Part shown: one piece after another, positions 15,427-55,579 of the stretch
Layout of the letters: each line of letters begins with the position of its first letter
Position numbering within the stretch: position 1 is the first letter of the stretch
Assembly: GCF_000427405.1 (NCBI RefSeq)
Contig: NZ_KE386491.1
Location: 2,029,001 to 2,093,000 of the forward strand
Direction of reading: 5' to 3'
Origin: Flectobacillus major DSM 103
Lineage (GTDB): Bacteria; Bacteroidota; Bacteroidia; Cytophagales; Spirosomataceae
DNA: 64,000 bases
Program-made: the position numbers and the translations under genes
The notes under the pieces: model-generated
Told to the model about the DNA's origin: nothing
Seen by the model: the letters and a program-made list of their open reading frames with translations, nothing else
The model's database searches: none

Positions 15427-15664
15427 AAAAACATGAGTCATCCCGAATTTTGGGATAATTTACAAAAGAGACCTCTTGTTTGTGTTTATTGAGATTCACG
15501 AGGTAGACCATTGTGCTTTTTTCCCAATAGGGTGTTCAGTAGCACCCTATTGGAAAAAAAGCACAATGGTTAGGCATTTATTGACTATTAATCAAAAAAG
15601 GTGGCCGAAAAACGAATTTCGACCGCTTTTTTTGATTAAAAAATTCGGAAGGACTCATGTTTTT
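15427..15664. repeat. convergent-gap structured repeat, copy A (full length, with terminal inverted repeats)
   Basis: A 238-bp element between the E2 gene (+) and the ABC ATPase gene (-), ending 3 bp from the latter's stop. The ends, 15427-15451 and 15640-15664, are inverted repeats of 25 bp with two mismatches. Inside are two long hairpins. The first has arms at 15507-15534 and 15543-15570 (28 bp, one mismatch). The second has arms at 15588-15610 and 15617-15639 (23 bp, two G-U pairs and one mismatch). It shares its left 75 bp and its second hairpin core with copies at 36181 and 55365. No transposase is encoded. The structure suits either a MITE-like element or a bidirectional terminator. 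Confidence 0.85.
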
Positions 15665-15667
15665 CTC

Positions 15668-16348
15668 TTATAATATCTTTGACAAATCAGGCTGATTTAT
15701 ATGGCTTTCTTTTAGTTCTCTATCTATTTCGGCAAATGCTTCTGGCTGATAAACCTTCTCTATCTTGGTATCTTTCAACCATAATATGGCATCACATACA
15801 CCCCTAAGGGTATCCAAAATATGGGAAGTTATAATAACCACTTTTCCTTTTTCTTTCAACACCTTGATTATATTGGTAAGTACCCAGCTAGATTCTAAAT
15901 CTAAGCCATTGTAAGGCTCATCCAAAATAATAATTTCTCTATCTAGCTTTAAAATACATAAAAGAGCTAGCTTTTTTTTCATTCCTGTCGAATACTCTTC
16001 AACAAGCGAATCCAAAGGTAAATCCATGATTTTTGCCCATTGATTTTCGTCAAAAGAAGGTATTTTCGAGGCGAAAATTGACAATATTTCTCGGCCTGTT
16101 AAGTAGCTATAAAAAAAATTATTGGTTTCCAAGATAGCTACTTGCCTTCTGTCTAAGGGCTTGTTTTGCCATAGTAATTCGCCACTTGTTGGGAACAAAA
16201 AGCCTGCAATACAATTGAGCAAAGTAGATTTCCCTGAACCATTTAGGCCAACTAAGCCATAGATATTACCGCTTTGAAATGATATTGAAATATGTTTTAA
16301 AACGGGCTCTGCCTGATAGGAAAAAGTGATATTTTTGAGTTCAAGCAT
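15668..16348 (-). CDS. ABC transporter ATP-binding protein
   Basis: A 226-residue ABC ATPase. Walker A is GLNGSGKST (about residues 34-42), the signature-like motif is EYSTGMKKKLALL, and Walker B is IIILDEPYNGLD followed by a switch His in VIITSHI. The MKKK signature variant is typical of ABC-2/CcmA-like exporters. The frame is open further upstream, but the ATG at 16348 gives the normal MLELKNITFSY beginning and overlaps the upstream membrane gene's stop by 8 bp, so the two are translationally coupled. It probably powers an exporter together with that membrane protein. The substrate is unknown. Confidence 0.9.
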   Translation of the reverse strand: MLELKNITFSYQAEPVLKHISISFQSGNIYGLVGLNGSGKSTLLNCIAGFLFPTSGELLWQNKPLDRRQVAILETNNFFYSYLTGREILSIFASKIPSFDENQWAKIMDLPLDSLVEEYSTGMKKKLALLCILKLDREIIILDEPYNGLDLESSWVLTNIIKVLKEKGKVVIITSHILDTLRGVCDAILWLKDTKIEKVYQPEAFAEIDRELKESHINQPDLSKIL

Positions 16349-17282
16349 TGAAGTAAAATTTGAGGTTCCTGATAGATTTTTGGTAAAATACAAAACATAA
16401 TACCATTGAAATAGGAAACATGTAAGGCAAAAATATACCCACAAACAAAAAACCTCCTATTACAGTATTGGACGGCACTCCTATATTAGGCTGGTATGAT
16501 TTATATTTATTAAGGATAAACACCAGATAATTAAGCACATACACTACCTGTAGTGCTATAAAAAATAATAAATTTTCGGGATAGTGAATCCCATACAATA
16601 CCATCAATGGCCCTACAAATACCAAGTATTGCTTCGTTTGAAATAGAATCTTTTGATACAAAAAAGATTGGGCTGTTGTTGCTTCCAGCAAGACAATTGG
16701 AAGACTTTCGCATCTATTAAAAAAACCTAGAAAAAACATCGTAATCAGTCCAATCCCTAAATAGCCTGAAGGATACCAGGTACCTATAATCAAAACTCCT
16801 ATATAAATCAACATAATTGGCCATTGATGTTGCCTCATACCAGCTATCCACTCAAAATTACCCTCCAACAAGATGCTTTTCAAAACAACGTGTTGCCTTA
16901 TTTTAGGTAGTTCGACCGTACGATTGACCCAGCCGATAAGTCCAGTAAGCATAATAGCAACACCAATATAAACCACAGGAATTTGATAAGCGATTAGGGC
17001 TATATACCAAGGCATAAGCACAAGGTTATATTCCAGCCAATAATATAATGGGTAATTCTGTGAAAAAAGCATTTGGATTAGCCGCTTATCTTTTCGTTGC
17101 AAGTGAACTGTCCATGGTGCTAAAGCCGACAACATGGCTGTCCAAGGATTAAGCTGTATGGCCAGAAGTAACCTTAATACTAGTATAATACCCATAATAG
17201 CCCCTATCAATATAGCTATCCAACCTGCCTCCACAAGAAGTCTTTTGAACTGTATATACCTTAGTAACAATATATTTATCAT
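16341..17282 (-). CDS. multi-pass membrane protein, likely permease partner of the ABC ATPase
   Basis: A 313-residue very hydrophobic protein with about eight to ten transmembrane segments and an N-terminal basic stretch (RYIQFKRLL). I do not recognise a named family from the sequence. Its stop overlaps the ATPase start (ATGCTTGA), which strongly suggests that the two form one ABC-2-type transporter. Similar large-membrane-protein plus CcmA-like ATPase pairs occur in Bacteroidota without known cargo. The transporter role is inferred from the coupling only. Confidence 0.7.
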   Translation of the reverse strand: MINILLLRYIQFKRLLVEAGWIAILIGAIMGIILVLRLLLAIQLNPWTAMLSALAPWTVHLQRKDKRLIQMLFSQNYPLYYWLEYNLVLMPWYIALIAYQIPVVYIGVAIMLTGLIGWVNRTVELPKIRQHVVLKSILLEGNFEWIAGMRQHQWPIMLIYIGVLIIGTWYPSGYLGIGLITMFFLGFFNRCESLPIVLLEATTAQSFLYQKILFQTKQYLVFVGPLMVLYGIHYPENLLFFIALQVVYVLNYLVFILNKYKSYQPNIGVPSNTVIGGFLFVGIFLPYMFPISMVLCFVFYQKSIRNLKFYFNA

Positions 17283-17342
17283 ATCAGATATTATGGTTAT
17301 GAACTATTAGTCAAACAATACCCCAAAACATTACATTTAATT

Positions 17343-17385
17343 GCAATAAAAAAGGCTACCCTTATGAGGTAGCCTTTTTTATTGC
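17343..17385 (-). terminator. terminator after the desaturase
   Basis: Perfect 18-bp arms at 17343-17360 and 17368-17385 (GCAATAAAAAAGGCTACC and its complement) with built-in A and T runs. It lies just past the desaturase stop on the minus strand. Confidence 0.85.
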
Positions 17386-17396
17386 TTTATTTCTAC

Positions 17397-18158
17397 TTAA
17401 AACTTTGCATCAGCAGGTTTTACATTGGGTTTAATAATTCTTAACCAAGTCAAAACTTTGATTACAGGATAAGTTGGGTCAACCTCATACCACTTAGAAC
17501 CGAAGTTCATGCTATTGGGCAATTTGTGGTGGTTGTTTTGGAACAACTCGCCCAACATCAAGAAATCAAAAACCAAAGAGTTTTTTGATTTATCTTGGTT
17601 GTCATAGTTTTGATAACCATACTTGTGGCCCGACCAGTTTACGATAGCACCATGAATAGGCCCCATCAAGAAGTGTACAGGCAACAAAAAGAAAAATGCC
17701 CAGTGCATATCAAAATATACATAAGCCACAATATAGAATACTGAATAAGCTACACCCCAGCCAATTCTTGAAGCCCAGTGGTCGCCCAGTTTTTCAATAA
17801 AGTTTGAATATGGGTAATTATGGTCAAAACGCTCTTCTATTTTAGTTTTGCTATTTAACAAAGCATTGTAAATATCTTTTGTTTTCCACATCATTGTGAA
17901 AACATTGCTTGAGAAGTGCGGTGAGTGAGGGTCTTTTTCTGTGTCGCTAAATGCGTGGTGCATACGGTGCAAAATAGCATAAGCACGTGGGCTTAAATAT
18001 GATGAACCTTGTGATACATAAGTTAAAAAGTAAAAAAAGCGTTCCCAGAACTTGTTCATTAAGAACATTTTATGAGCCGAATAGCGGTGCAAGAAAAATG
18101 TTTGGCTAAATAATGACAAATACCAGTGAATAATAAATGCGGGTAATACCAATTGCAT
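17397..18158 (-). CDS. acyl-CoA/fatty acid desaturase
   Basis: A 253-residue integral membrane di-iron desaturase of the stearoyl-CoA desaturase type. The three histidine clusters are visible: HRYSAH (about residues 24-29), HRMHHAFSDTEKDPHSP (about 64-80) and NNHHKLPNS (about 213-221). Four hydrophobic segments alternate with them. It introduces a double bond (probably delta-9) into membrane fatty acids and so adjusts fluidity. It is shorter than eukaryotic forms but normal for bacterial ones. It is monocistronic, with a CAAATATA (-7 on the minus strand, 18187-18194) just upstream and a strong terminator downstream. The position of the double bond is not readable. Confidence 0.92.
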   Translation of the reverse strand: MQLVLPAFIIHWYLSLFSQTFFLHRYSAHKMFLMNKFWERFFYFLTYVSQGSSYLSPRAYAILHRMHHAFSDTEKDPHSPHFSSNVFTMMWKTKDIYNALLNSKTKIEERFDHNYPYSNFIEKLGDHWASRIGWGVAYSVFYIVAYVYFDMHWAFFFLLPVHFLMGPIHGAIVNWSGHKYGYQNYDNQDKSKNSLVFDFLMLGELFQNNHHKLPNSMNFGSKWYEVDPTYPVIKVLTWLRIIKPNVKPADAKF

Positions 18159-18314
18159 GTGTGTAAGTAGTTTAAAAATTATACAACAAATATACTCTTT
18201 GTTAGTCGAAAATGTTTTAACAATACGTTATTCTGACAAATGTCACTTTTTTAAAACATTTATATCTTTGTTTATATCATCTTTAACAGAATTAGTGTGT
18301 CAAAAAGGATATTG

Positions 18315-18998
18315 CTAAAATGAGGTGAGGGCAAATGACAACAAATTGGCACCCATCTGTAAAGCTTTCTGTCGAACACTTTCGGGGTCGTTATACACCG
18401 ATTGGTCTTCCCAACCATTGCCCAAATCGCATTCGTAACTATAGAAACAAACCAAGCGTCCTTCCCAAATAAGGCCAAATCCTTGTGGAGCTTTCCCATC
18501 GTGCTCGTGTACCTTTGGTAAGCCATTTGTAAACTTAAATCGTTGGCTATAAACAGGATGATTAAAAGGCAATTCTACAAAATTCAGTTCGGGAAATACT
18601 TTTTTCATTTCTCTTCTGATAAATTTATCTAAGCCATAGTTATCGTCGATATGCAAGAAGCCACCACTGATAAGATATTTTCTTAGATTTCTGGCCTCGC
18701 TTTCCGAAAAAACGATGTTTCCGTGTCCAGTTAAGTGTACAAATGGATAGGTAAACAATTCGGGGCTACCAGCCTCAACAATATCTTCTTCGGGGAAAAT
18801 ATTCATTCGTAAATTACTATTACAAAACTTGATAAGATTGCCCAATGAAGTCTTGTTACAATACCAATCACCGCCACCGCCATACTTCATTTTGGCGATT
18901 TTGTAAGAAGCTTGCCCAAAAACGTTTTGATTAAAACCAAGCAAAACTACCAAAATACAAACTAAGCAAACTTGTACGTGTTTCTTCAAATACATCAT
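18315..18998 (-). CDS. DUF4159 protein, exported
   Basis: A 227-residue protein with a signal peptide (about residues 1-29, ends NVFGQ) and a DUF4159 domain. Recognisable segments are MKYGGGGDWYCNKTSLGNLIKF, FPFVHLTGHGNIVFSE-like text (actual YPFVHLTGHGN), LRKYLISGGFLHIDDNYGLDKFI, FPELNFVELPFNHPVY and the late IWEGRLVCFYSYECDLGNGWED. The fold resembles class I glutamine amidotransferases (ThuA-like), but no catalytic role is known. In many Bacteroidota it lies with AAA/VWA genes; here it follows rsmE with a 4-bp overlap (ATGA), so the pair is cotranscribed. A second ATG lies directly after the first. Confidence 0.88.
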   Translation of the reverse strand: MMYLKKHVQVCLVCILVVLLGFNQNVFGQASYKIAKMKYGGGGDWYCNKTSLGNLIKFCNSNLRMNIFPEEDIVEAGSPELFTYPFVHLTGHGNIVFSESEARNLRKYLISGGFLHIDDNYGLDKFIRREMKKVFPELNFVELPFNHPVYSQRFKFTNGLPKVHEHDGKAPQGFGLIWEGRLVCFYSYECDLGNGWEDQSVYNDPESVRQKALQMGANLLSFALTSF

Positions 18999-19696
18999 TG
19001 GTTAATTAAATTTAATGTATGACAAGCTACCAATCCTGCTGTTTCGGTTCTGAGGCGGCTGTCGCCCAGACTAACAGCTCTAAATCCCTTTTGTAATGCC
19101 TGTGTGATTTCATCATTTGAGAAATCACCCTCTGGCCCAATCAACACACAAGTACTTTCACCTGCAAGTGGCACATTTTTTAGCAAATGGCGTTCGCCAT
19201 CTTCCAAATGTGCTATTAAGTTATGTGTTGCAAGCAAATCTTTCTTGAGAAACTCTTTCCAAGTAATCATTTCATTGATTTTGGGCATGAAAGCTTTCAG
19301 CGATTGTTTCATTGCTCCTACTGCAATTTTCTCAATTCTTGGCAATTTAACTTCTTTTCTTTCAGAATAACGTGTTTGGACAAAAGTTATTTCATCAATT
19401 CCAATTTCAACACACTTTTCTATCATCCATTCTATTCTATCAAGGTTTTTGGTGGGGGCTATTACCAAATGAAAATAATAGTTTCTTACACCAAAGTTTG
19501 ATTGATATTCGAGGATATTTAGCTCACATTTTTTATCATGTGCTTTCAAGATTGAACACTTAAAAAGCCCTCCTTTGCCATCTATTACATGAATCAGCTC
19601 TCCTTCCTGTAATCGTAACACCTTTACCGCATGCCTCGATTCTTCTTCATTCAATCGTTGCTGAGATTGTATTTCTGGTTGATAAAATAAATTCAT
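18995..19696 (-). CDS. rsmE: 16S rRNA (uracil(1498)-N(3))-methyltransferase RsmE
   Basis: A 233-residue SPOUT methyltransferase that modifies U1498 of 16S rRNA. The N-terminal PUA-like part (about residues 1-70) has SRHAVKVLRL and IHVIDGKGG. The knotted SAM-binding part has IGPEGDFSNDEI, SLGDSRLRTETAG and the earlier QTRYSERKEVKL segment. The frame is open 13 codons upstream, but the ATG at 19696 gives the standard MNLFYQPE start. It overlaps the DUF4159 gene by 4 bp. Length and motifs are fully normal. Confidence 0.95.
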   Translation of the reverse strand: MNLFYQPEIQSQQRLNEEESRHAVKVLRLQEGELIHVIDGKGGLFKCSILKAHDKKCELNILEYQSNFGVRNYYFHLVIAPTKNLDRIEWMIEKCVEIGIDEITFVQTRYSERKEVKLPRIEKIAVGAMKQSLKAFMPKINEMITWKEFLKKDLLATHNLIAHLEDGERHLLKNVPLAGESTCVLIGPEGDFSNDEITQALQKGFRAVSLGDSRLRTETAGLVACHTLNLINQ

Positions 19697-19718
19697 GAAA
19701 TTATTTTTCTTATATATT

Positions 19719-19756
19719 AAAAGCCTTACATACAAGGTTTGCTTGTCAAGGCTTTT
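19719..19756 (+). terminator. terminator-like hairpin facing the + strand, upstream of rsmE
   Basis: AAAAGCCTT (19719-19727) pairs with AAGGCTTTT (19748-19756), with an inner ACAAG/CTTGT stem, and T7 follows on the + strand. No + strand gene precedes it; rsmE starts 23 bp away on the other strand. Confidence 0.5.
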
Positions 19757-20284
19757 TTTGTACTATTCAAACATTTGCTATTGCTAAGTAACTGTATCTA
19801 CACACGAATCAGCTGATTATCTGTGTTTTTGGCTTAGGGTTATTCTATTTCTAAAGAGGATCTTTTATCTATAAGCCAAATACTACAGACGAAAGTTCAA
19901 ATATAGCATTTCTCCCTCGATTTTGATAATATCTCCCAAATTGCCTCTGATATTGAATAATTATTGGCCCAACCTACAAAATATAGACAAACGATTGATT
20001 TTCAAGAATTTATTCTTTTGTTTACTAAAAACCTTAGGTTATCAAGTTTTTTTACCAATTGATGACAGCCTCATAATCAGGTATTTTGTGCTACTTACGC
20101 AGGTAAACAGCATTTATTCATAAAAACTTGATATTTTCTATCTTGGATAATTGGGAGAAAAGCAAAATTTAGATACTAATTGTTATAAAAAGAAGCCTAT
20201 GAGAAGTGTAGTAATACTTAGGAGTAGCTTTCAAAAATAGTACAGAGCCTCGTAGATAAGACCCTGTACCAAGACCTTTATTGA
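19757..20284. other. intergenic stretch without a supported gene
   Basis: About 530 bp between the hairpin upstream of rsmE and the acidic-protein gene. A 66-codon open frame (19923-20123, +) lacks a recognisable family and a clear ribosome site, and I do not call it. No RNA gene or repeat was recognised. Confidence 0.5.
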
Positions 20285-20848
20285 TTAGTCGTCATGTTCT
20301 GTTTTGAAAGAATACAAAGTTGGGTCTAAGCGAATACTACCCGACAAGAAGTCGTCTACAAACTTAATAACCACTTTTTCGGTAATTTCTTCTACATTCA
20401 AGCAAACATCCAAGCCAATACCATATTCAAAATTTTCGTCAACCTCAATGTGTTCAGCTAACTTAATTTCTTCATTTTCTTCAATTTCCTCTATAAGCTC
20501 GGTAATAAATAACTCTACTTCTTCGTCCATAGCCTCGTTAGGAGTGTATGTTTCATCACGGTTTTCCATAGGCACATACAAAGGATACGACTTAATAGCT
20601 TTTCTTTCAGCGGTTTCATAAACCACACTATTATAGTGCAATCTTAAAGTATAAAGTACGGCATCATAAATCACCTCTTGATTTTTGTATTCGCCTACGA
20701 ATTGAACATGCACAAACTCTTCTACATTATCTGGTTCGTCATTTAGTTCATCTTCGAAATAGACAAATTTTTGTCCAGCCTCGATACATTCTTTTTTGAG
20801 CTGTTCAATTTCAGCGGGGTCAAAGCCTAGGTTTTTCTTTTGAGCCAT
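20285..20848 (-). CDS. conserved-looking acidic protein of unknown function
   Basis: A 187-residue soluble protein that is strongly acidic, with Asp/Glu clusters such as EELIEEIEENEEI and DEEVELFITEL and no transmembrane segment or signal peptide. The middle (about residues 45-100) alternates hydrophobic and polar residues like a small beta-rich domain (FVHVQFVGEY, VIYDAVLYTLRLHY). The N-terminus is basic (MAQKKNLGF) then helical. I do not recognise a family. Clean frame, good length and position directly downstream of a start-proximal AT-rich leader support a real gene. It lies on the same strand as glnN but after that gene's terminator on the other side, so it is probably transcribed alone. 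Confidence 0.75.
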   Translation of the reverse strand: MAQKKNLGFDPAEIEQLKKECIEAGQKFVYFEDELNDEPDNVEEFVHVQFVGEYKNQEVIYDAVLYTLRLHYNSVVYETAERKAIKSYPLYVPMENRDETYTPNEAMDEEVELFITELIEEIEENEEIKLAEHIEVDENFEYGIGLDVCLNVEEITEKVVIKFVDDFLSGSIRLDPTLYSFKTEHDD

Positions 20849-20897
20849 AATTTTAATATTATTATTTGAATCAATGTTTTGCCAAATATAAGAAAAA

Positions 20898-20923
20898 TGC
20901 CCTCCGCTTAAAAGTGGAGGGCA
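20898..20923 (-). terminator. terminator after glnN
   Basis: TGCCCTCC (20898-20905) pairs with GGAGGGCA (20916-20923), extended by weaker pairs; on the minus strand it is followed by TTTTT. It lies just past the glnN stop. Confidence 0.75.
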
Positions 20924-20929
20924 CTAAAA

Positions 20930-23134
20930 TTATCGAATCAATAACAACTCACGGTATTTTGGCAATGGCCATTCGTCATCATCAACGATTAGTTCTAGCT
21001 TATCTACGCAATATCTAATTTCTTCAAAAAAGCTTTTAATATTGGTACTATATAATTTGGCTCTTTCAAAAGTATCTTCTACATTATTGGCTTCCTTACG
21101 AGCTTCGGTCATATCGTCGCAAAGGGTTGTAATCTTAGAAGTATATTGAGAGATTTTTTTAATCATTTCGATAGTAGGAGCAAAATATTGAGGGTCGATA
21201 CCAATTTCTTTTTGTCCCCGAACATTATCTACCAACTGTGTTTGGTATTTTAATGACGTAGAAACTACGTGATTAATAGCCAAGTCGCCTACAACACGTG
21301 ATTCTATCTGTACTTTTTTGATATAGTTTTCTAATTCGATTTCAAAACGAGCGTGCATTTCGGTTTCGGTATAGATACCATATTTCGAGAAAAGCTCAAT
21401 AGCCGCAGGGTCTAGGTATTTGGCTAAGGCTTCAGGGGCAGTTTTTAGGTTTGACAACCCACGTGACGCAGCCTCTTCAACCCAATCTTCAGAATAGCCA
21501 TTGCCTTCAAACAAAATACGTTTCGTACTTTTTACATACGATTTTAGTACCTCAACGATAGCCAATTCTTTTTTAACTCCTTTTTCTAAGATAGCATCTA
21601 CTTCTTCTCTAAACTTGAAAAGTTGATTAGCCATAATAGTATTTAGGATAGTCATTGGGGCAGCCGAGTTGGCCGACGAACCTACAGCACGGAACTCAAA
21701 CTTATTGCCAGTAAAGGCAAACGGAGAAGTTCTATTGCGGTCGGTATTGTCCAATAATAAGGCAGGAATTTTATTAATACCCAAACGCAAATATACGTTA
21801 TCGCCCTTTTCTAATTTAATATCGTTGAGTTCCGACAGGTTTTCGAGGTCGTTGAGTACTCTTGTCATTTCTGTACCAATAAAAATAGATACAATGGCAG
21901 GAGGAGCTTCATTTGCCCCCAAACGGTGTTCGTTGCCCGACGTAGCGATCGAGGCTCTAAGTAGGTCGGCATGGTCATGTACAGCCTTAATTGTATTGAC
22001 AAAGAAAGTCAAAAAACGAAGATTTTCTTTAGGCTTGGTAGACGGGCTCAACAAGTTGATACCAGTGTCTGTACCTAACGACCAGTTGTTGTGCTTTCCA
22101 GAACCATTGATACCCGCAAATGGCTTTTCGTGAAACAACACTCTCAATTTGTGTTTTACAGCCACCTTATTCATCAAGTCCATCAACAAAGCATTGTGGT
22201 CACAAGCCAAGTTCACTTCTTCAAAAGTTGGAGCTACTTCAAACTGAGCAGGAGCTACTTCGTTGTGACGAGTACGTACAGGCATACCAAGCTTTAGGGC
22301 CTCCAATTCAAAGTCGACCATAAAGGCATTGATTCGAGAAGGAATCGAGCCAAAATAGTGGTCTTCTAATTGTTGTCCTTTGGCAGGTGAATGCCCGAAA
22401 ACGGTACGACCAGCCATCATCAAATCGGGACGAGCATTGTATAGAGCTTCGTCGACCAAGAAATACTCTTGTTCGGCACCGAGTGTTACTGTTACTTTAG
22501 ACACATCACGGTTGAAGTACTCGTTCATTACTTTGGTAGCAGCCTTGTCAATCAACTCAATTGATTTCAACAAAGGTGTTTTGTAGTCGAGTGCCTCACC
22601 AGTATACGATACAAATACAGAAGGAATACAAAGCGTAGCAGTACCAGCTACATTTTCCATAATAAATGCTGGCGACGACGGATCCCAAGCAGTATATCCA
22701 CGAGCTTCAAAAGTAGAACGAATCCCACCATTTGGAAAAGACGAGGCATCGGGTTCTTGCTGAACCAAAGCACTTCCTTTAAATTTTTCAATAGCCTTTC
22801 CTGTATGCGTAATATCAAAGAAGGCATCGTGTTTTTCGGCTGTTGTACCTGTTAAGGGTTGAAACCAGTGCGTATAGTGAGTTGCTCCTTTCGACAAAGC
22901 CCAAGATTTCATGGCAGCAGCTACTTCATCAGCGGCTTCACGGTCAATTTTTTTGCCGTCTTGGATGGCATTGGTTATTTTTAGGTAAGCTTCAGGGCTC
23001 AACAACGAACGCATCACTTCGTCGTTGAAAGTATTGCTTCCATAAAAATCTGTTACCTTTTCAGTAGGTACTTTCACTGGGACATTCTGACGAGTCTGTG
23101 CCAGTTCGAGTGCCTTAAATCTTGCTATCGCCAT
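20930..23134 (-). CDS. glnN: glutamine synthetase type III
   Basis: A 734-residue GSIII, the large dodecameric glutamine synthetase typical of Bacteroidota and cyanobacteria; it makes glutamine from glutamate, ammonium and ATP. Visible motifs are the N-terminal NTFNDEVM and GATHYTHWFQPLTG, the metal-site LGAEQEYFLVDE, the ATP/glutamate region NGSGKHNNWSLGTDTG, and SGNEHRLGANEAPPA and EFRAVGSSANSA nearer the end. Length is normal (about 700-730). A -7-like box (CAAAAATA, 23177-23184) precedes it. It is divergent from a second, unrelated glutamine synthetase gene at 23706. Identity is secure. Confidence 0.96.
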   Translation of the reverse strand: MAIARFKALELAQTRQNVPVKVPTEKVTDFYGSNTFNDEVMRSLLSPEAYLKITNAIQDGKKIDREAADEVAAAMKSWALSKGATHYTHWFQPLTGTTAEKHDAFFDITHTGKAIEKFKGSALVQQEPDASSFPNGGIRSTFEARGYTAWDPSSPAFIMENVAGTATLCIPSVFVSYTGEALDYKTPLLKSIELIDKAATKVMNEYFNRDVSKVTVTLGAEQEYFLVDEALYNARPDLMMAGRTVFGHSPAKGQQLEDHYFGSIPSRINAFMVDFELEALKLGMPVRTRHNEVAPAQFEVAPTFEEVNLACDHNALLMDLMNKVAVKHKLRVLFHEKPFAGINGSGKHNNWSLGTDTGINLLSPSTKPKENLRFLTFFVNTIKAVHDHADLLRASIATSGNEHRLGANEAPPAIVSIFIGTEMTRVLNDLENLSELNDIKLEKGDNVYLRLGINKIPALLLDNTDRNRTSPFAFTGNKFEFRAVGSSANSAAPMTILNTIMANQLFKFREEVDAILEKGVKKELAIVEVLKSYVKSTKRILFEGNGYSEDWVEEAASRGLSNLKTAPEALAKYLDPAAIELFSKYGIYTETEMHARFEIELENYIKKVQIESRVVGDLAINHVVSTSLKYQTQLVDNVRGQKEIGIDPQYFAPTIEMIKKISQYTSKITTLCDDMTEARKEANNVEDTFERAKLYSTNIKSFFEEIRYCVDKLELIVDDDEWPLPKYRELLLIR

Positions 23135-24719: not shown

Positions 24720-24740
24720 TCTTAACAGTTCGCAATATTC

Positions 24741-36180: not shown

Positions 36181-36320
36181 CAAACATGAGTCGTCCCGAA
36201 TTTTGGGCTAATTTAAAATCAAAACCTCATGTTTGTATTTATTGGGATTTACGAGGTAGATCATTAACCAAAGAAGGCGGTCGAAAAACTAATTTCGACC
36301 GCCTTCTTTGGTTAATGATT
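36181..36320. repeat. convergent-gap structured repeat, copy B (short form)
   Basis: About 140 bp between the acyl-CoA reductase (+) and the DUF2147 gene (-). The left 70 bp match copies A and C (AAACATGAGTCGTCCCGAATTTTGGG and onward). It lacks the first hairpin of copy A. Its main hairpin is perfect: 27-bp arms at 36260-36286 and 36293-36319 with a 6-base loop. A second possible stem pairs CAAACATGAG (36181-36190) with CTCATGTTTG (36226-36235). No right terminal repeat is recognisable. An open frame runs through it by chance. Confidence 0.85.
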
Positions 36321-47659: not shown

Positions 47660-47667
47660 TAACTTTG
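47660..47667 (+). promoter_or_regulatory. -7 promoter box for trxA
   Basis: TAACTTTG, an exact TAnnTTTG, 32 bp before the trxA ATG, after an AT-rich 160-bp gap. Confidence 0.55.
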
Positions 47668-47698
47668 AACGTGAATATTAATCTTAATTAAAAATAAA

Positions 47699-48022
47699 AT
47701 GGGAAATTATGTTGTAGCAACTGATGCAAACTTTCAGGAGCTAATAAATTCAGACAAACCTGTATTAGTAGATTTTTGGGCAGAATGGTGTGGTCCATGT
47801 AAAATGATAGGCCCAGTTGTAGAAGAATTGGCAGGAGATGTAGAAGGCCAAGCAATTGTAGCTAAAATGGATGTAGATGCTAATTCGGTTGTACCTGCAA
47901 CTTTGGGTATTCGTTCTATTCCAACTTTGATGATTTTCAAAAATGGTGAATTGAAAGAAAGATTAGTAGGCGGTAATATTCCAAAAGCTGTTTTGTCTCA
48001 AAACCTTTTGAAACACGCTTAA
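47699..48022 (+). CDS. trxA: thioredoxin
   Basis: A 107-residue classic thioredoxin, the cytosolic disulfide reductant. Active site W30-C31-G-P-C34 in FWAEWCGPCKM, buried Asp in VDFWAEW, and the cis-Pro loop in IRSIPTLMIFKNGE. It has normal length and no signal peptide. It carries its own promoter box and a strong hairpin after the stop. Identity is very secure. Confidence 0.96.
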   Translation: MGNYVVATDANFQELINSDKPVLVDFWAEWCGPCKMIGPVVEELAGDVEGQAIVAKMDVDANSVVPATLGIRSIPTLMIFKNGELKERLVGGNIPKAVLSQNLLKHA

Positions 48023-48037
48023 TCAGCAGAATACAGC

Positions 48038-48070
48038 AAAAGGCTCTTGGTGTAGCACCAAGAGCCTTTT
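48038..48070. terminator. bidirectional terminator between trxA and the AraC gene
   Basis: Perfect 15-bp arms at 48038-48052 and 48056-48070 (AAAAGGCTCTTGGTG and complement), flanked by A and T runs, between convergent stops. Confidence 0.9.
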
Positions 48071-48078
48071 TTGTGCCA

Positions 48079-48888
48079 TTACTCCAACACTCGCTTCATT
48101 TTGGCATAATCAGACGGCCGAAAACCCATTAGGTTATAAAAGGTATTACTGAAGGTAGGTATGCTACTGTAGCCAACCATAATGGCCACATCATTGACAG
48201 GCAGTTTTTCTTCTAATAGCAATTGTAAAGCCTTCAATATTCGCAAAATAGTATAAAATTGAATAAACGACATCCCTAAATCGGCCTGAAATAAACGTGA
48301 TAAACTCCGCTGACTAAATCCAAATTGCTGGCATATTTCAGAGAACACAATAGGGTTATGAAGGTTATTCCTCATAAAATCTATCAGTTTTGTCAAACGT
48401 TCATCTTTGGGATAGGGCAATGCCAAGGGCAAGCTAAAAGCACTAATAGATGGCAATAATGCCTTTATGGCCAAAGCTATCGTAAAATTAGGAATGTCGC
48501 TAGGCACAATGTCGCCATGCCAACGATTGGAAAACAAAAACAATTGCATCAACAAATCATTGACAGGATAAATCGCTGTATTGGCATAAAAATCTACATC
48601 GTTTTGACTGGTAGGAAAATACAAATTCCGCATAATTATATCGGGCGAGCTAGCATGAATACTATGCTCAACACCTGCTGGAATCCATAAGTAATGCCTT
48701 GCTGGCAAAAAATACGTCTTTTCGGGTATCGAAATATGTACTACCCCTCCTTCTGTGTACAACAATTGGGCCTTTTGGTGTGTATGTGGCTGTACCAAGT
48801 TTTCGCCCATGGCATCATGATAACAATAAATCGAATCAGACAACTTATCAACTTCTGTAAGGTAGTATTTTGTAGCAATTAAGCTCAT
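48079..48888 (-). CDS. AraC family transcriptional regulator with cupin sensor domain
   Basis: A 269-residue regulator. The N-terminal cupin-like part (about residues 20-110) has QPHTHQKAQLLYTEGGVVHI and LWIPAGVEHSIHA, which may bind a small ligand. The C-terminal AraC DNA-binding part (about 165-265) has two helix-turn-helix units: NPIVFSEICQQFGFSQRSLSRLFQ and LPVNDVAIMVGYSSIPTFSNTFYNLMGFRPSDY. It is divergent from the CoA-transferase gene, with 278 bp between, and is a candidate controller of that gene or of the efflux set beyond. The target is inferred from position only. Confidence 0.92.
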   Translation of the reverse strand: MSLIATKYYLTEVDKLSDSIYCYHDAMGENLVQPHTHQKAQLLYTEGGVVHISIPEKTYFLPARHYLWIPAGVEHSIHASSPDIIMRNLYFPTSQNDVDFYANTAIYPVNDLLMQLFLFSNRWHGDIVPSDIPNFTIALAIKALLPSISAFSLPLALPYPKDERLTKLIDFMRNNLHNPIVFSEICQQFGFSQRSLSRLFQADLGMSFIQFYTILRILKALQLLLEEKLPVNDVAIMVGYSSIPTFSNTFYNLMGFRPSDYAKMKRVLE

Positions 48889-49166
48889 GGCCGAAATGAA
48901 TAAATATTTGACTTTTTAAGATATTTCTACCACAAACCTACCAACTAAATTTGTCATATTATACTTCATCGACATATATATCCAAAATTTAGGGGCATAA
49001 AAATAATCTCAATAAACAATTAGGTGAATAGGCCAGTAGGTCATCAGCAATAACTCGATAGCATCAGCAAATGTAAGTTCCCAAAACAATCAGTTATTGC
49101 CACTTTTAGCTATTGCCTTTATCCTTAGCCCCTTTTTTTAGCTTTTTCAACCATTTGTCAATTACT

Positions 49167-50663
49167 ATGAATCAGGAAAGAATACAACAACCCGAGCTTC
49201 TCCACAAAATTATGTCGGCCAATGAGGCTACTCGATTTTTTACAGATGGCATGGTTGTTGGCTCAAGTGGATTTACTCGTGCAGGCGACAGCAAGGCTGT
49301 TTTACAAGCCTTGGCTGAAAGAGGAAAAACCTCGCCGCTCAAAATTACGCTTATTACAGGGGCATCGCTAGGACACGACACCGACGGGCTACTGGCCGAA
49401 AACCATATTTTATCAAAAAGAATGCCTTTTCAGGCCGATGCCGTACTGAGGAAATATATCAATACAGGTGATATTCTTTTTATCGACCAGCATTTGGGCG
49501 AAACAGCCGAGTTGATTCAAAACCAACATTTACCCGCCATAGACATAGCCGTGATTGAAGCCGCTATGATTAAAGAAGATGGCAGCATTATACCTACTAC
49601 GTCGGTAGGAAATTCGGCAACATTTATCGCAAAAGCTCAGAAAATCATTATTGAAATCAACCTTGCTGTACCTACAAGCGTACAAGGTATTCATGATATT
49701 TTTTATGTAGGCGATTATCCCAACCGTTCGATTATCCCGATTACGTCGGCCGATACTCGTATTGGACAAAACAGTATCCCTGTGGATACCTCCAAAATCG
49801 TCGGAATTGTATTCACCAATTTGTCGGATAGTGCTGCCAATATTGCTCCGCCCGATACAAAAACAACGGCTATTGCCGAACACCTTATTCAGTTTTTTCG
49901 AGAAGAAGTTCGTCAAGGGCATTTAGGATACTCATTATTGCCACTTCAGGCAGGTATTGGCAAAGTAGCCAACGCTATTTTGCATGGCTTTGTTCATAGC
50001 GAATTCCATGATTTAACCATGTATTCGGAGGTGCTTCAAGATAGCACCTTCGAGCTAATGGATGCAGGCAAAATGACTTTTGCGTCGGCTTCATCTATTA
50101 CCGTTTCAAAAGAATGCTATCAAAGACTTTTTATGAATTTTGAGAGATACAAAGACAAAATTCTTTTGCGTCCTCAGAATATCAGTAATGCTGCCGAGGT
50201 GATCAGACGCTTAGGCATTATTGCCATCAATACGGCTATCGAATGCGATATTTATGGCAATGTCAATTCTACACACGTGTATGGCACAAATATGATGAAC
50301 GGAATAGGTGGATCTGGCGATTTTGCTCGAAACTCCTATCTCAGCATTTTTGTCACACAAGCAGCCTCAAAAGAAAACCGAATTTCGCATATTGTACCGA
50401 TGGTGTCGCATGTAGACCATACCGAGCACGATGTCGATATTATTGTAACAGACTACGGTTTGGCAGATTTAAGGGGGCTTGCTCCGAGGGAAAGAGCTAT
50501 TAAGATTATTGAAAATTGTTCGCACCCCGACTACCGCCCATTGTTGCTAGACTATTTTGAACGTGCTTGTGAAAAAGGCGGTCAAACGCCCCATTTGCTC
50601 AATGAAGCCCTTCAATGGCACGTTCGATTGATTGAAAAAGGAAACATGACGATTGACAAATAG
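49167..50663 (+). CDS. acetyl-CoA hydrolase/succinate CoA-transferase family protein
   Basis: A 498-residue class I CoA-transferase. Features: FTDGMVVGSSGFTRAGDSKAV near the start, the catalytic-glutamate region LTMYSEVLQDS and the late GIGGSGDFARNSYLSIFV and VTDYGLADLRGLAPRERA, all typical of succinyl-CoA:acetate CoA-transferase/acetyl-CoA hydrolase. It exchanges CoA between acetate and succinyl-CoA or hydrolyses acetyl-CoA. The frame extends to 49113, but the ATG at 49167 gives the usual start. It is alone, with an AraC gene divergent upstream. Transferase versus hydrolase activity cannot be told here. Confidence 0.92.
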   Translation: MNQERIQQPELLHKIMSANEATRFFTDGMVVGSSGFTRAGDSKAVLQALAERGKTSPLKITLITGASLGHDTDGLLAENHILSKRMPFQADAVLRKYINTGDILFIDQHLGETAELIQNQHLPAIDIAVIEAAMIKEDGSIIPTTSVGNSATFIAKAQKIIIEINLAVPTSVQGIHDIFYVGDYPNRSIIPITSADTRIGQNSIPVDTSKIVGIVFTNLSDSAANIAPPDTKTTAIAEHLIQFFREEVRQGHLGYSLLPLQAGIGKVANAILHGFVHSEFHDLTMYSEVLQDSTFELMDAGKMTFASASSITVSKECYQRLFMNFERYKDKILLRPQNISNAAEVIRRLGIIAINTAIECDIYGNVNSTHVYGTNMMNGIGGSGDFARNSYLSIFVTQAASKENRISHIVPMVSHVDHTEHDVDIIVTDYGLADLRGLAPRERAIKIIENCSHPDYRPLLLDYFERACEKGGQTPHLLNEALQWHVRLIEKGNMTIDK

Positions 50664-50894
50664 AGGGTTAGATTACTTGCGTTTTGGGCGTACAGATTTT
50701 GGGATGGCAAACAAAACTGTTTGGGAATCTAGTACGCTCAATCGATGAAATGTAAATGGTTCTACCTTAATTTAACAATAAACCATATACATACCGATTT
50801 CATGAATTAATAATAAAACTACTAGCTCAACAACTGGCTCATTATAGAGACTGTATTTCACTCTTTCAAAATTATATTTTATACAATTTTCGTT

Positions 50895-52253
50895 ATGAAA
50901 CCCCTCAGAATCCTCTCGGATAGGCGTATTTATTATGCCATCCTGTATACGGTATTGGTTCATCATAAAAGCCTTTATGCCCAGCATACCACAGGGCAAC
51001 CTACGCATGTCCTAACAATCAATTTGACAGAGGCCCTCACTTTGGCCAAAAGCAACAACCGCAATATCCAAAAAGCAAAACTGCAATTAGGTATTAGTGA
51101 GGAACTTATCAAAGAAAAAAAGGAAATCCAACTGCCCGATATTGATTTGCATACCTCTTATTATAGAATGAGTAATTTGGTAGAATACCAACACAGCGAC
51201 GTTACCAAGTTTTATAAAACCATTCCCGATATATACGACATTACGCTCAATGCCAAAATGCCTATTTATATGGGACATAAAATCAAATATGCTATTCAAA
51301 AAGCAGAAAAGGAGCATGAATTAGAAAACATCCAGCTCGAAAAAATTACAAACGATAAGCAAATAGAGGTAATCCAAACCTATTTGGGTATTTGTAAATT
51401 GATTGAGTTCAAAAAATTACTTACCGAAAACCTCCGAGAAGAAGAAGAACGGCTCAAAGTGGTAAAAGCCTTTCAGAAAAATGGAACAGTTACCAAAGAA
51501 GAGGTTTTACAGGCCGAATTACAGCGTTCAGATATTCAGTTGGCCACTATTTCAAACGATCGCAATCTTGCTGTATTATCGCACGACCTAAAAACACTTT
51601 TGCAAATTCCAGAAAATGACTCATTGACTGTTGATAGCAACAACGCCATAGCCCCACACGAAAACCTCGGCTCTATTGAGCAGTATCTGGCTTTTGCCCT
51701 CAACAAAGAAGAGTTAAGAATGGCTCAGACCCATACCGAAATCAATCTGCTTGATAGAAAATCGGTAAAAGCCAACTATTATCCAACAGTAAGTTTTTTT
51801 GGTACGTTTGGGTTCAACTACCCCAACTATATGCTTTTTCTTTTTCCACCACACCCCTATTTGTATAGCCTTGGCCGAGCCGGAATAGATATTAATTATA
51901 GCATTTCTAATCTATTCAAAAACAAAACCAAGATGAGTATTGCTACACAAAAAATACAAATTAGTCAGGTACAAAAGGATATTGTCAAAGATGAAATTTA
52001 TGATAATGTTTTCAGAAAATACATGGCCTATCAAGAAGCCCAAGACAAAATAAGGGTTACCCAAAAGGCTATTAATCAGGCAGAAGAAAACTATCGAATT
52101 ATCAAAAACAAGTATTTTAATCAACTCGCTTTGCATACCGACATGATGGATGCCGACAATGCTTTGCTACGAACACGATACAATCATCTTTCTATCCAAA
52201 TTGAAGCTACAGCAAAATATTACGACTTGTTGTATGCTTGTGGTAAACTATAA
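50895..52253 (+). CDS. TolC family outer membrane efflux protein
   Basis: A 452-residue outer membrane efflux protein. A hydrophobic, weakly basic leader of about 30 residues ends at LYAQ. The body has two OEP repeats: EALTLAKSNNRNIQKAKLQLGISEELIKEKK, then a strand pair (DIDLHTSYYRMSN), long coiled helices (residues about 130-240), and a repeat of the pattern after residue 270 (FFGTFGFNYPNY strands then helices). TolC trimers form the outer channel of tripartite pumps. It starts a three-gene set with the HlyD and MFS genes (gap of 12 bp to HlyD). Confidence 0.92.
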   Translation: MKPLRILSDRRIYYAILYTVLVHHKSLYAQHTTGQPTHVLTINLTEALTLAKSNNRNIQKAKLQLGISEELIKEKKEIQLPDIDLHTSYYRMSNLVEYQHSDVTKFYKTIPDIYDITLNAKMPIYMGHKIKYAIQKAEKEHELENIQLEKITNDKQIEVIQTYLGICKLIEFKKLLTENLREEEERLKVVKAFQKNGTVTKEEVLQAELQRSDIQLATISNDRNLAVLSHDLKTLLQIPENDSLTVDSNNAIAPHENLGSIEQYLAFALNKEELRMAQTHTEINLLDRKSVKANYYPTVSFFGTFGFNYPNYMLFLFPPHPYLYSLGRAGIDINYSISNLFKNKTKMSIATQKIQISQVQKDIVKDEIYDNVFRKYMAYQEAQDKIRVTQKAINQAEENYRIIKNKYFNQLALHTDMMDADNALLRTRYNHLSIQIEATAKYYDLLYACGKL

Positions 52254-52265
52254 AAGCAAAATATC

Positions 52266-53324
52266 ATGAATACCCCAAAAATAACCGATACAAGTAGAAT
52301 TTTTAACACTTTGGTAAGTGTATTTGCAGGAGGCATAACCCTTGGCGGTATTGCTATGGGTGGCTGGTTTTATGTTTTTTATAAAAATAACGAAGAAACC
52401 AACGATGCTCAGATAGAGCAATACGTAACCCCTGTTATGAGCCGAGTGTCGGGCTATATCAACAAGGTTTGGTACACCGAAAATGCCTTTGTTCATAAAG
52501 GAGATACCCTTGTTTCTATCGACAATCGTGAGTACAAAGCCAAACTTGATATGGCATACGCCGATTTTGAGAATGCCCTGAAAAATGAAAATGTTATAGA
52601 AAACAAAGCTCAAACTACCAAGGGAACAATCGCTATTCATCAGGCTCAGTTAGATGCCACCAAAGCCCATGTTTGGGAAACCGAACGAGAATATAAGCGG
52701 TATTTGAACTTGCTCAAGGAAGAAGCGGCCACCGAACAAAAAGTAGAATGGGCCAAAACCAATTATGAAGCGGCTCTTTCCAAATACAACGAGGTTGTTG
52801 AAAGTATCAAAGCTACCGAGCTACTAGCCAAAGAAGCTGCATCGGTAATACCTTACGGCAATACGATTATCAAACAGAAAAAAGCTGTACTCGATAACGC
52901 CAAATTGTTTTATTCTTACACAGTTATTACTGCTCCATACGATGGCTGGGTAGGCAAAAAAAACCTACAGGCGGGTCAGTTGGTAAAAGAAGGGCAAACT
53001 TTGGTGTCGGTAGTAAGCAAAGAAAAATGGATAACGGCCAATTTTAAGGAAACACAAGTACGTTTTTTGAAAATTGGACAAATCGTAAGTTTTACTGCCG
53101 ATGCTACTGGTAACAAAAAATGGAAAGGACAAATTGAATCGTTTTCACCTGCCAGTGGGGCTCGTTTTTCGCTTTTACCTCCCGATAATGCTACTGGTAA
53201 TTTTGTAAAAATAGAACAGCGGATACCTATTCGTATCAAAATAATGGAGATTGACGACCCTTTTTATCCACTTCTAAGAGCAGGAATGAACGTCGAAGTA
53301 ATAGCCAAACACGAAGACAAATAG
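52266..53324 (+). CDS. HlyD/EmrA family periplasmic adaptor
   Basis: A 352-residue membrane fusion protein. One transmembrane helix (about residues 18-40), then the biotinyl-lipoyl part VTPVMSRVSGYINKVWYTENAFVHKGDTLVSIDNREYKAKLD (EmrA-like), a coiled-coil hairpin (about 95-200), and the returning half VITAPYDGWVGKKNLQAGQLVKEGQTLVSVV with the beta-barrel after it. It links the MFS pump to TolC. Its position between the TolC and MFS genes supports an EmrAB-TolC-type exporter. Confidence 0.93.
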   Translation: MNTPKITDTSRIFNTLVSVFAGGITLGGIAMGGWFYVFYKNNEETNDAQIEQYVTPVMSRVSGYINKVWYTENAFVHKGDTLVSIDNREYKAKLDMAYADFENALKNENVIENKAQTTKGTIAIHQAQLDATKAHVWETEREYKRYLNLLKEEAATEQKVEWAKTNYEAALSKYNEVVESIKATELLAKEAASVIPYGNTIIKQKKAVLDNAKLFYSYTVITAPYDGWVGKKNLQAGQLVKEGQTLVSVVSKEKWITANFKETQVRFLKIGQIVSFTADATGNKKWKGQIESFSPASGARFSLLPPDNATGNFVKIEQRIPIRIKIMEIDDPFYPLLRAGMNVEVIAKHEDK

Positions 53325-53465
53325 ATTATTTTTTATACTGAGTACACCCCTTTTTTAACAAAACAAAATCACTCGATTGTATTAAAAACAGCGGTTGCCT
53401 TATAGCCAATCAAAGTTGTAGGGCAACCCTTATTCCAATTTTTCACCTCCTCCAAAGTTTTTATT

Positions 53466-55055
53466 ATGTCTGCTTCTGGAAATAGTATTTTCAAAGAATG
53501 GGTTCCAAACTGGGCAATTCTGAGTATTCTGGTTTTTTGTATGCTACATTCAATGGTACTTTTGGGTTTATACACTTCAAATATTACTTATTCGGCCAGC
53601 TATCTTGACATCGAACCCGAAGATTTGCAGTTTACGATGAGCCTAACTTATGGTACTTTTTTGGCTACCATCATGATTGAAGGTAGGCTTTTCAAGTATT
53701 TCCCTACCCGCAACTACTTTGTGGTAATCTACTGTTTTTCAGCTATTTTGTTTATTGTATCGGCCTATACCAACGACTTTTACGTATTTGCTATACTTAG
53801 GGTTATCGAAGGTATTTTGATGGCCTTACCTTGGATTCCCTTGAGGATTTTGTTGCTTTCAAGATTCAAAACACAAAATGCTACAATTGTCGTTTTTTCG
53901 CTGACTTACGGAGCATTACTAATTGCTACACCTTTTATCGTAAACATTGCCGTTTGGATACTCGATTGGTCAGACTGGACTTATATGGTTTATGGCTCGG
54001 CCTTTTTCCAGATTGTGTGTGTGGGTCTTATTTCTTTGACATTCAACAACAACCATTTTCATAGAAAAGTACCTCTATATCAAGTGGATTGGACAAGCTT
54101 TGTATTGCTTTGTGCCGATATTTTGAGCGGTGCTTTTATTTTGGTTTATGGCGAAAAAAAATACTGGTTTCAGTCACCCCAAATTGTTACAGCCACAGTT
54201 ATTTGCCTGATATTTAGTGCATTATTTATCATCCGACAATTGACCGTAAAAAGACCTTGTTTTGATATGACTGTATTTCGGTATGCCAATTTACGTACTG
54301 GATTATTGCTTTTTATACTTTTTTATATCTCTCGTTCTTCGCTCAATATCTGTCATGCTACCATGAGCAAGGTATGGAATTGGGAGCCTATCAGAGTAGC
54401 CAACATTCAGTATTTGAATGCCTTAGGCGATATGATTGGAATTACCTTTGCTGGTATTCTTATGGCCAAGGGTGTGGCCACTCGTTTTATTTTTGTCATA
54501 GGATTTTTGTTGATGGCTATTCATCATTTATGGTTTACGTTTCTATTTGTTCCAGATGTGGCTTTGGTCGATATTGTTGTGCCTTATATGCTTCAAGGCA
54601 TAGCCGTCGGAACGCTATTTGTGCCATTGGTGTTATTTACGGTTTCATCGGTGCCATCACATTTGGCTCCATTTTCGGGAGCGGTTGGAGTTTCAGGACG
54701 TTTTTGGGGTACTAATATTGGCTTTTGCATCATGCAAAATGCTCAGGTATTTTTTCAAGCCAAACACTTTCATAAATTTCGTCAGTTTATTGCACCCGAA
54801 AGTCAGGAAACTCAACAGCGAATCGCCCAGTTACAAAATAGCTTTTTGGCAAAAGGCTACACCGCCGACAATGCTTACCAATTGGCTATGCAACAAATTG
54901 GCGTAGCAGTTCAAAAACAAGATATATTACTAAGTAATATGGAAATTTTTACGGGTATTGGGCTTGTATTGCTAGTATTGGTAGTGCTATTATTAATCAA
55001 TCAACATTTGAAAGATTCATTTAACTTATTCAGAAATAAGATTTGGGTAAGTTAG
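53466..55055 (+). CDS. MFS efflux transporter, EmrB/DHA2-like (14 transmembrane type)
   Basis: A 529-residue major facilitator with about 14 hydrophobic segments, the DHA2 pattern that works with EmrA-type adaptors. The region LRVIEGILMALPWIPLRILLL corresponds to motif C-like/antiporter positions, but the classical DHA2 motif wording is diverged, and the first loop has GTFLATIMIEGRLFKYFPTRN in place of the usual DxxGRR. It follows the HlyD gene by 141 bp. A long hydrophilic stretch with many Gln precedes the last helix (about residues 440-490). It exports drugs or lipophilic compounds; the substrate is unknown. Confidence 0.87.
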   Translation: MSASGNSIFKEWVPNWAILSILVFCMLHSMVLLGLYTSNITYSASYLDIEPEDLQFTMSLTYGTFLATIMIEGRLFKYFPTRNYFVVIYCFSAILFIVSAYTNDFYVFAILRVIEGILMALPWIPLRILLLSRFKTQNATIVVFSLTYGALLIATPFIVNIAVWILDWSDWTYMVYGSAFFQIVCVGLISLTFNNNHFHRKVPLYQVDWTSFVLLCADILSGAFILVYGEKKYWFQSPQIVTATVICLIFSALFIIRQLTVKRPCFDMTVFRYANLRTGLLLFILFYISRSSLNICHATMSKVWNWEPIRVANIQYLNALGDMIGITFAGILMAKGVATRFIFVIGFLLMAIHHLWFTFLFVPDVALVDIVVPYMLQGIAVGTLFVPLVLFTVSSVPSHLAPFSGAVGVSGRFWGTNIGFCIMQNAQVFFQAKHFHKFRQFIAPESQETQQRIAQLQNSFLAKGYTADNAYQLAMQQIGVAVQKQDILLSNMEIFTGIGLVLLVLVVLLLINQHLKDSFNLFRNKIWVS

Positions 55056-55364
55056 ATTTGTTCCAATGTTGAGATATAAAGCTGTTTAGGTTAACGGTAA
55101 CGAGCGAATAAATTTGCTCGTTAATAGGAAAGAAAATATCGTTTGAGAGTAGATTTGTCTGTCAAAAATCAGGATAAAGAAAAGTCATTGGAGGGTTTTA
55201 TTTACAAAGAATGAATCGATTTCTTATAAAATTTCGTAGCTTCTTTTTAGGGCTTCTTGGGATTGGTGATTGTATCAAAAAATATTTGACTATCTCTTTC
55301 AGAGGTGATTATTTGTTTTTTCTGTACTTATTGGCATTTTAGGATTACCCTAGCAACAAATCTC
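55056..55364. other. intergenic stretch before repeat copy C
   Basis: About 310 bp after the MFS gene with no supported gene, RNA or repeat. Confidence 0.45.
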
Positions 55365-55579
55365 ATAAATCGTCCCGAATTTTGGGATAATTTAAAATAG
55401 AGACCTTTTGTTTGTATTTATTGGGATTCATGTAAGTAAACCATCGTGCTTTTTGTTACAATAGGATGCGAATCAATTCGTATCCTATTAACAAATATTA
55501 GGCATTTATTGACTATTAATCAACAAGGCGGTCGAAATTAGTTTTTCGACCGCCTTGTTGATTATTCGAGATGACTTAT
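55365..55579. repeat. convergent-gap structured repeat, copy C
   Basis: A 215-bp element between the MFS gene (+) and the YgiQ gene (-). Terminal inverted repeats of 16 bp with three mismatches lie at 55365-55380 and 55564-55579. The left part matches copies A and B. The first hairpin is partly eroded: AATAGGATGCGAA (55460-55472) pairs with 55477-55489 with one mismatch, while the outer right arm present in copy A is deleted. The second hairpin has perfect 21-bp arms (55517-55537 and 55544-55564) containing the shared GGCGGTCGAAA core. The 25 bases GGCATTTATTGACT-type spacer before it is shared with copy A. Confidence 0.85.

Follow-up and report, generated by a model that had tools for sequence, protein, structure and literature searches.

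The 64,000-nucleotide stretch of the Flectobacillus major DSM 103 genome analyzed here (the window; contig NZ_KE386491.1, positions 2,029,001 to 2,093,000) carries three related elements, A, B, and C, that are members of a superfamily of miniature inverted-repeat transposable elements (MITEs) with AAACATGAGTCATCCCGAATTT ends. These elements are found in high copy number at the 3' ends of genes. In relatives, the same ends enclose a 1.44-1.47 kb insertion sequence (IS) with one DDE transposase of about 450 amino acids. At three sites occupied by this IS, the hairpin that relatives carry is missing, and at two others an entire hairpin has been duplicated. We consider it probable that this is a hairpin-targeting IS family whose MITE derivatives replace terminators with their own and serve as transferable bidirectional terminators at more than 100 gene ends.

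In the scheme we propose, A, B, and C would be non-autonomous members of the family and the IS its autonomous form. The transposase would target the hairpins of intrinsic terminators just 3' of genes; the element would usually take the place of the hairpin and would occasionally leave a whole copy of it on either side. Because insertion would destroy the terminator of the host, copies bearing a hairpin that stops transcription from both sides would persist, and the family would thereby have come to serve its present role at gene ends.

Copies in the genome and their position relative to genes

Searches of the window's own assembly with two copies as queries returned at least 101 and at least 104 matching pieces, and further copies came from searches with two sister types. 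Because only 40 of ≈156-163 candidates were scored in each of these four DNA searches, the copy lists are lower bounds. Exact AAACATGAGTC ends occur 67 times genome-wide, compared with 2 for a reversed control. The places recovered (84 and 39) were taken with 3 kb flanks and merged with the window into 106 stretches totaling 771 kb, in which profiles identify at least 120 elements: 33 of type I, 70 of type II, and 17 of type III, labels coined in the present analysis. Element length ranges from about 77 to 367 bp, the largest figure including merged neighbors, with a median of ≈230 bp, and both ends are recognizable (12/16 or better) in 79 of the 120. Eight elements were found in an evenly spaced sample of 14 blocks of 20 kb, from which we extrapolate to roughly 180 in the genome. 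As expected of MITEs, the elements are shorter than 500 bp, have terminal inverted repeats, lack a transposase, and share their ends with an autonomous IS. Flanking direct repeats, a further mark of young MITE copies, are absent beyond chance: a repeat of at least 5 nt borders 1 of the 79 two-ended copies, and 1.14 would be expected.

The first-pass annotation of the window had described a MITE-like element, tolerated or maintained as a bidirectional terminator, in convergent gaps; it advised tabulating flanking gene orientation across the genome and held that equal abundance in divergent or tandem gaps would count against it. Assigned by midpoint, 85 elements lie in convergent gaps, 34 in tandem gaps, and none in divergent gaps or called genes, with 1 at a stretch edge. 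The intergenic bases of the window predict 14.4 convergent, 77.2 tandem, and 27.5 divergent positions for the 119. The description as a MITE at gene 3' ends therefore stands (0/119 divergent), and the terminator role is a prediction. Within tandem gaps, 33 of 34 elements are nearer the 3' end of the upstream gene; the median distances are 19.5 nt to the upstream stop codon and 222 nt to the start of the following gene. The link is thus to gene 3' ends generally, not to convergent pairs alone. The evenly spaced sample agrees: with window gaps subtracted and one of the eight elements dropped because it lies at a block edge, an element occupies 5 of the 29 convergent gaps, 2 of the 146 tandem gaps, and none of the 29 divergent gaps (Fisher p = 7e-4). 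Genes were called with a hexamer-based caller, which may miss small ones. At one locus (L329), the caller gives a divergent gap, yet the left flank reads by eye as a short plus-strand cold-shock-type gene.

Some elements adjoin one another. Among the outward flanks of 198 end motifs, 14 match type II or type III sequence, several of which we read as internal look-alikes of the end motif; 3 of the 14, copy A among them, fall at the base of a hairpin. By eye, type II elements (e.g., L071, 3001-3294) contain internal sequence resembling a degenerate end motif (GACACATCTTT), as though one element were nested in another. When MITE interiors were compared with the IS by blastn, end motifs of merged neighbors dominated the matches.

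The autonomous insertion sequence and its insertion sites

Relatives do carry the full transposon that the first-pass annotation had thought worth seeking, in which these ends flank a transposase gene. An end-motif scan of reference genomes returned at least 120 stretches. Among the 80 listed, the motif occurs in Flectobacillus, Arcicella, Spirosoma, Rudanella, Lewinella, Saprospiraceae, and others, and four end pairs lie ≈1.4 kb apart, all four being the IS. The IS with MITE ends is found in Flectobacillus, Spirosoma, Lewinella, and others, and 21 distinct IS sequences were extracted from the fetched loci. Single end-motif matches were also seen on contigs labeled SAR202, Thermoflexus, and Anaerolineales (L178, L203, L214).

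Each IS has a single open reading frame, the stop codon of which lies within the right end repeat. Both transposases tested score above the cut-off for Pfam DDE_Tnp_1 (PF01609) and contain an IS4-type YREK motif, Y(2)R(3)E(6)K (YMHRWNIEQAFRFAK). The NCBIfam IS4-clan models score well under their cut-off (best 50.3 bits versus 160), and no IS1182 model appears among the NCBIfam matches of the two proteins up to E 1. Candidate catalytic residues are E356, the DRG at 231, and the WDD at 128, the aspartates being chosen putatively by motif; their spacing falls within the IS4-family range, D(60-110)D(100-150)E. The Tn5 transposase is a weak PDB match over residues 325-400 (E 2e-4). A transposase match at E 1e-50 was found in 14 of 150 genomes of the family. 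At E 0.001, there is none in the window's genome and none in G004, which also has no end-motif match. Three relatives differ in the state of the gene: G003 has intact copies, those of G001 are all interrupted by a stop or a break in frame, and G002 retains only pieces. G003 and a contig of Flectobacillus sp. BAB-3569 have an IS copy and its flanks in common. A transposase of this IS probably moved the MITEs of the window.

The IS leader forms a hairpin just 5' of the transposase start and resembles the MITE left arm, with a median z against mononucleotide shuffles of 3.1-3.4 for type I and 3.4-5.2 for type II (best >9); by the same measure, the type III left arm bears no likeness to it. By eye, such leaders (e.g., the first 90 bp of L297) show an A-/T-tract hairpin that ends just before the start codon, with a GGAGG ribosome-binding stretch inside. 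Such an arrangement is what would be expected if it protects from outside transcription. A second hairpin can be seen in the last ≈100 bp of the IS, where the transposase coding sequence comes to its 3' end (L158, L196, L213, L299, L300, L302, L305). Its two arms appear to change together between ISs (e.g., AGCGGT..ACCGCT, ATCGGT..ACCGAT), which suggests that some DNA or RNA structure is conserved inside the coding sequence. Derivation of the MITE core from this second hairpin, also suggested by eye, finds no support in alignment scores.

The surroundings of the IS suggest a hairpin target. All 17 full-length copies in one genome (G116) were examined for flanking repeats. A perfect 19-bp hairpin at L325 and a 45-bp hairpin at L328 are each repeated whole on both sides of the IS, and no direct repeat borders the other 15. 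None of the 17 has an IS4-type target duplication of ≈8-13 bp. In 23 IS copies (L295 and L305 not counted because of wrong ends; L162 and L343, and L213 and L337, being the same places), direct repeats of other lengths up to 2.5 kb were found at no locus beyond L325 and L328, with the sole exception of an 11/12 match in L196. Flanks did not match between different IS copies among the first 11. Classical target-site duplication is therefore rejected, as it is found neither in the MITEs nor in 15 of the 17 G116 copies.

Comparison with empty sites suggests what the IS displaced. At three of the four comparable IS sites, the hairpin of the relatives is missing, two of the cases being clean and one one-sided. 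For L326, 12 congeneric loci were available, 2 of which align on one flank only; a hairpin lies in the gap in all 10 that align on both flanks, and there is none in G116. Comparison with two relatives was attempted at seven further IS sites. For L334, both relatives have a strong hairpin exactly at the position of the G116 IS, and for L331 both have one immediately at the junction on the right. On the MITE side, G001, G002, and G003 have no element where copy A lies in the window, and in the folded G002 and G003 stretches a hairpin fills the gap (the G001 stretch ends before the far arm). Sites B and C also have hairpins in relatives, with a GCGGTCGAAA-style core in L346, L354, and L355 and another stem in L348; site B in G001 (L344) is 2 kb wide. 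By eye, the congener gaps at B and C (L346 5730-5950, L348 2090-2350, L354 2820-3110) hold different elements, with TTGAGTGAG-type ends.

Hairpin counts beside the MITEs favor replacement: one remains outside the element in 2 of 85 occupied convergent gaps and is found in 12 of 31 element-free ones, a result unchanged when both classes are searched 15 nt into genes. Remnants of a former stem were sought beside the MITEs as well. For convergent copies, the mean alignment score of the flanks was reached by 21 of 5000 permutations over 30 nt and by 609 of 5000 over 50 nt, and tandem copies did not exceed permutations. At least 6 exact abutting pairs flank 3 of 79 MITEs versus 0.68 expected. Together these values are a weak indication of inverted-repeat stubs of the old stem.

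Random intergenic insertion followed by selection could yield much of this distribution with no hairpin targeting: copies in promoters and operons would be purged, and those at gene ends would terminate transcription or be harmless. Pneumococcal repeats and IS elements, likewise over-represented between convergent genes, are explained in this way in the account of PMC3049150. Moreover, no target duplication is seen beside the MITEs, so that insertion as such leaves few marks. The IS copies of G116, however, are near-identical and hence young, and at 6 of 11 loci they already lie 2-38 nt from stop codons. The missing terminator hairpins at three of four comparable sites and the exact whole-hairpin duplications bordering two IS copies also weigh against it. 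We regard this explanation as unlikely, although it is the strongest of the alternatives. The likely cause of the pattern is targeting and replacement of terminator hairpins, beyond tolerance alone, and we infer that the transposase recognizes the hairpin.

Elements of the window and their core hairpin

Copy A (15429..15662, plus strand) is a type I MITE with two ends present, its 25-bp inverted repeats at 15427-15451 and 15640-15664 having 2 mismatches. It contains a long hairpin at 15507..15570 with a 28-bp stem (ACCATTGTGCTTTTTTCCCAATAGGGTG...) and a core hairpin at 15588..15639 (AAAAAAGGTGGCCGAAA..TTTCGACCGCTTTTTT), a predicted bidirectional terminator. Copy A adjoins the remaining half of a type III element (15299..15428, minus strand): its start corresponds to type III coordinate 89, near the base of the expected type III hairpin (48-96), and the remainder of that hairpin and the other half of the type III element are not present beside it. 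Copy B (36182..36319, plus strand) retains the left end and the core hairpin, a 27-bp stem at 36260-36319; its right end is missing, the best match within ≈120 bp being 7/11. Copy C (55364..55583, plus strand) is likewise a type I MITE, and its end repeats (16 bp, 3 mismatches) are degenerate. It has a first hairpin at 55460..55489 with a 13-bp stem, and a core hairpin at 55517..55564 with a 21-bp stem (TAATCAACAAGGCGGTCGAAA...).

The first-pass annotation was accurate on most of these points. The shared left part aligns over 84 nt from 15429, 36182, and 55361, with 86% (B) and 75% (C) identity to copy A, and the common central hairpin is repeat family D4/D10. The terminal repeats it reported for A and C are confirmed in both length and number of mismatches. 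All three copies lie in convergent gaps by the gene caller, between the neighbors it named: Pfam identifies an E2 acyltransferase and an ABC ATPase beside A, LuxC and DUF2147 beside B, and MFS_1 (E 3.7e-8, just below the Pfam cut-off) and Radical_SAM_N beside C. Its estimate of 13-14 convergent gaps in the window was too high, as the gene caller finds 8. Within the window, GGCGGTCGAAA (at most 1 mismatch) occurs 5 times, always inside element hairpins, versus 0.52 expected, and the end motif (at most 2 mismatches) 5 times versus 0.25. No Rfam family matches the window at its gathering score.

Across the family, a hairpin in the CGAA..TTCG register, extended by at least 3 further pairs, is present in 79 of the 120 elements. 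Because hairpin picking forces three pairs to be Watson-Crick, we scored pairs 4-8. In 41 distinct arm pairs these are 98.5% Watson-Crick, versus 90.8% with arms re-dealt (maximum 93.7%; 0 of 1000 reach the observed value), and over all 8 pairs the figures are 99.1% versus 86.8%. Several core positions have changed in both arms. Runs of A and T of at least 3 border the two sides of the core in 73 of 79 and of at least 4 in 41 of 79. With all elements set in one orientation, the loop reads AAACTAAT in 25 cases and its reverse complement, ATTAGTTT, in 22, and the near-equality of the two orientations means that the hairpin seems to invert within the element. From this sequence pattern, the core hairpin is predicted to terminate transcription from both sides.

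Several observations weigh against replacement of terminators by the elements. The core is absent in the CGAA..TTCG register from 41 of the 120 elements, and a simple terminator scan reports a single core hairpin, that of copy A on the minus strand; it misses those of B and C because their T-rich stretch is taken up in stem pairing. Hairpin inversion or arm repair alone, and not selection, could have produced the near-perfect arms. The core and the IS 3'-end hairpin have a median alignment z of about 0 for types I and II and 0.5-1.2 for type III. Fewer residual hairpins would be expected in occupied convergent gaps anyway because the sequence outside the element is shorter than in element-free gaps (median 29 nt versus 69 nt); the 106 stretches are also centered on copies, so that the element-free gaps are a neighborhood and not a random sample. 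At the IS sites, a called stop codon lies no more than 40 nt away for 12 of the 19 distinct loci (L162 being counted with L343 and L213 with L337), and the rest are farther away or uncalled. Alignment of the left flank of L331 stops 121 nt short of the IS, and L324, one of the four comparable sites, is ambiguous. Empty-site comparison fails for L325 and L328 (partial matches), L330 (relatives with ≈3 kb extra), and L332 (right flank distant or on a different contig).

Strong folds on either strand (z -4 to -11) also admit a reading in which the elements are chiefly RNA structures, such as 3' UTR stabilizers or palindromes of the repetitive extragenic palindrome (REP) type spread by a REP-associated transposase and unrelated to the IS. 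REPs, too, are found mainly downstream of genes and are described as 20-40 bp long (PMC3733652). The ends of the elements, however, are inverted repeats of a DDE-type IS, and their median length is far above that of REPs; the length range and IS ends also set them apart from REPs and the bacterial interspersed mosaic elements (BIMEs). We consider this reading very improbable. Still less credible is one in which the central hairpin is a DNA-uptake-type signal whose inverted pairs happen to form terminators, as such pairs do in Haemophilus and as the style of GCGGTCGAAA, which we take to resemble known uptake words, might suggest, because the 11-mer occurs in the window solely within element hairpins and its bases vary with compensation among copies. 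Inverted uptake-signal pairs forming terminators in Neisseria are mentioned in PMC3049150. Both readings were rejected on motif location, compensation, IS ends, and element length.

Known systems and a possible mechanism

The simplest account, by analogy, is that the targeting half of this system works like IS1272/TnSha1 and the derivative half like SPRITE, as these are described in PMC4923244 and PMC3049150. IS1272/TnSha1, of the IS1182 family in Staphylococcus, is reported to target hairpins without primary-sequence specificity, and 5 of 7 mapped target hairpins are confirmed terminators (PMC4923244). It deletes part of the targeted hairpin and makes no target duplication (PMC4923244); in our data, hairpin loss is seen at 3 of 4 comparable sites and the lack of duplication in 15 of 17 copies. 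Unlike IS1272, the present transposase matches no IS1182 model and has an IS4-type YREK motif, the IS duplicates the whole hairpin at two sites, and more than 100 gene ends have been reached by a MITE family that brings a hairpin of its own. In the pneumococcus, SPRITE is likewise a small repeat with a terminator-like hairpin, enriched between convergent genes and near the 3' ends of coding sequences, and its authors suggest co-option as terminators (PMC3049150). By its description, SPRITE differs in its short AAAA/TTTT ends and its host; 30 positions are tabulated for it, versus at least 120 elements here, and that account reports no comparable empty site and names no parent IS (PMC3049150).

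Classification of the IS falls between groups. With the IS4 family (PMC2266710), it shares a single-reading-frame DDE transposase, the Y(2)R(3)E(6)K motif, and catalytic spacing, but it lacks the ≈10 bp target duplication described for that family and scores far under the NCBIfam IS4 cut-offs. We therefore do not file it under IS4 because of the target duplication and model scores, nor under IS1182 because the transposase has no match there. IS1549 and IS1634 have variable direct repeats of 8-514 bp, for which no mechanistic model is given as of 2008 (PMC2266710). The present IS shares with them occasional long direct repeats of variable length, here 19 and 45 bp. In our case, each such repeat is a complete, perfect hairpin, and the majority of copies are without one; IS1549 and IS1634 are compared here by repeat length alone.

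One possible mechanism, which we put forward tentatively and rate as somewhat less than an even chance, is that the transposase joins the element at the base of a terminator hairpin or of an extruded cruciform. Fill-in of the folded-back flaps would leave the entire hairpin on both sides, and trimming would remove it, so that one reaction could yield both the duplicated and the missing hairpin. The symmetric terminator of the MITE would then be an adaptation that repairs the damage done by insertion, enabling the takeover of more than 100 gene ends. The same fill-in logic might explain the long direct repeats of IS1549 and IS1634.

Searches of the open-license PMC literature turned up neither a description of this family nor one of any MITE that substitutes its own terminator for existing ones. 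Hairpin-targeting transposition (IS1272) and terminator-like repeats (pneumococcus) are already known; in the present family the two are combined, with another transposase group and in Bacteroidota, where the parent IS, its MITE offspring, and empty sites are all visible. The family makes a mechanism testable, namely how a DDE transposase may use a hairpin as its target and what decides between duplication and loss. More broadly, it would be a case of a selfish element becoming a regular component of gene ends by supplying the very function that its insertion destroys.

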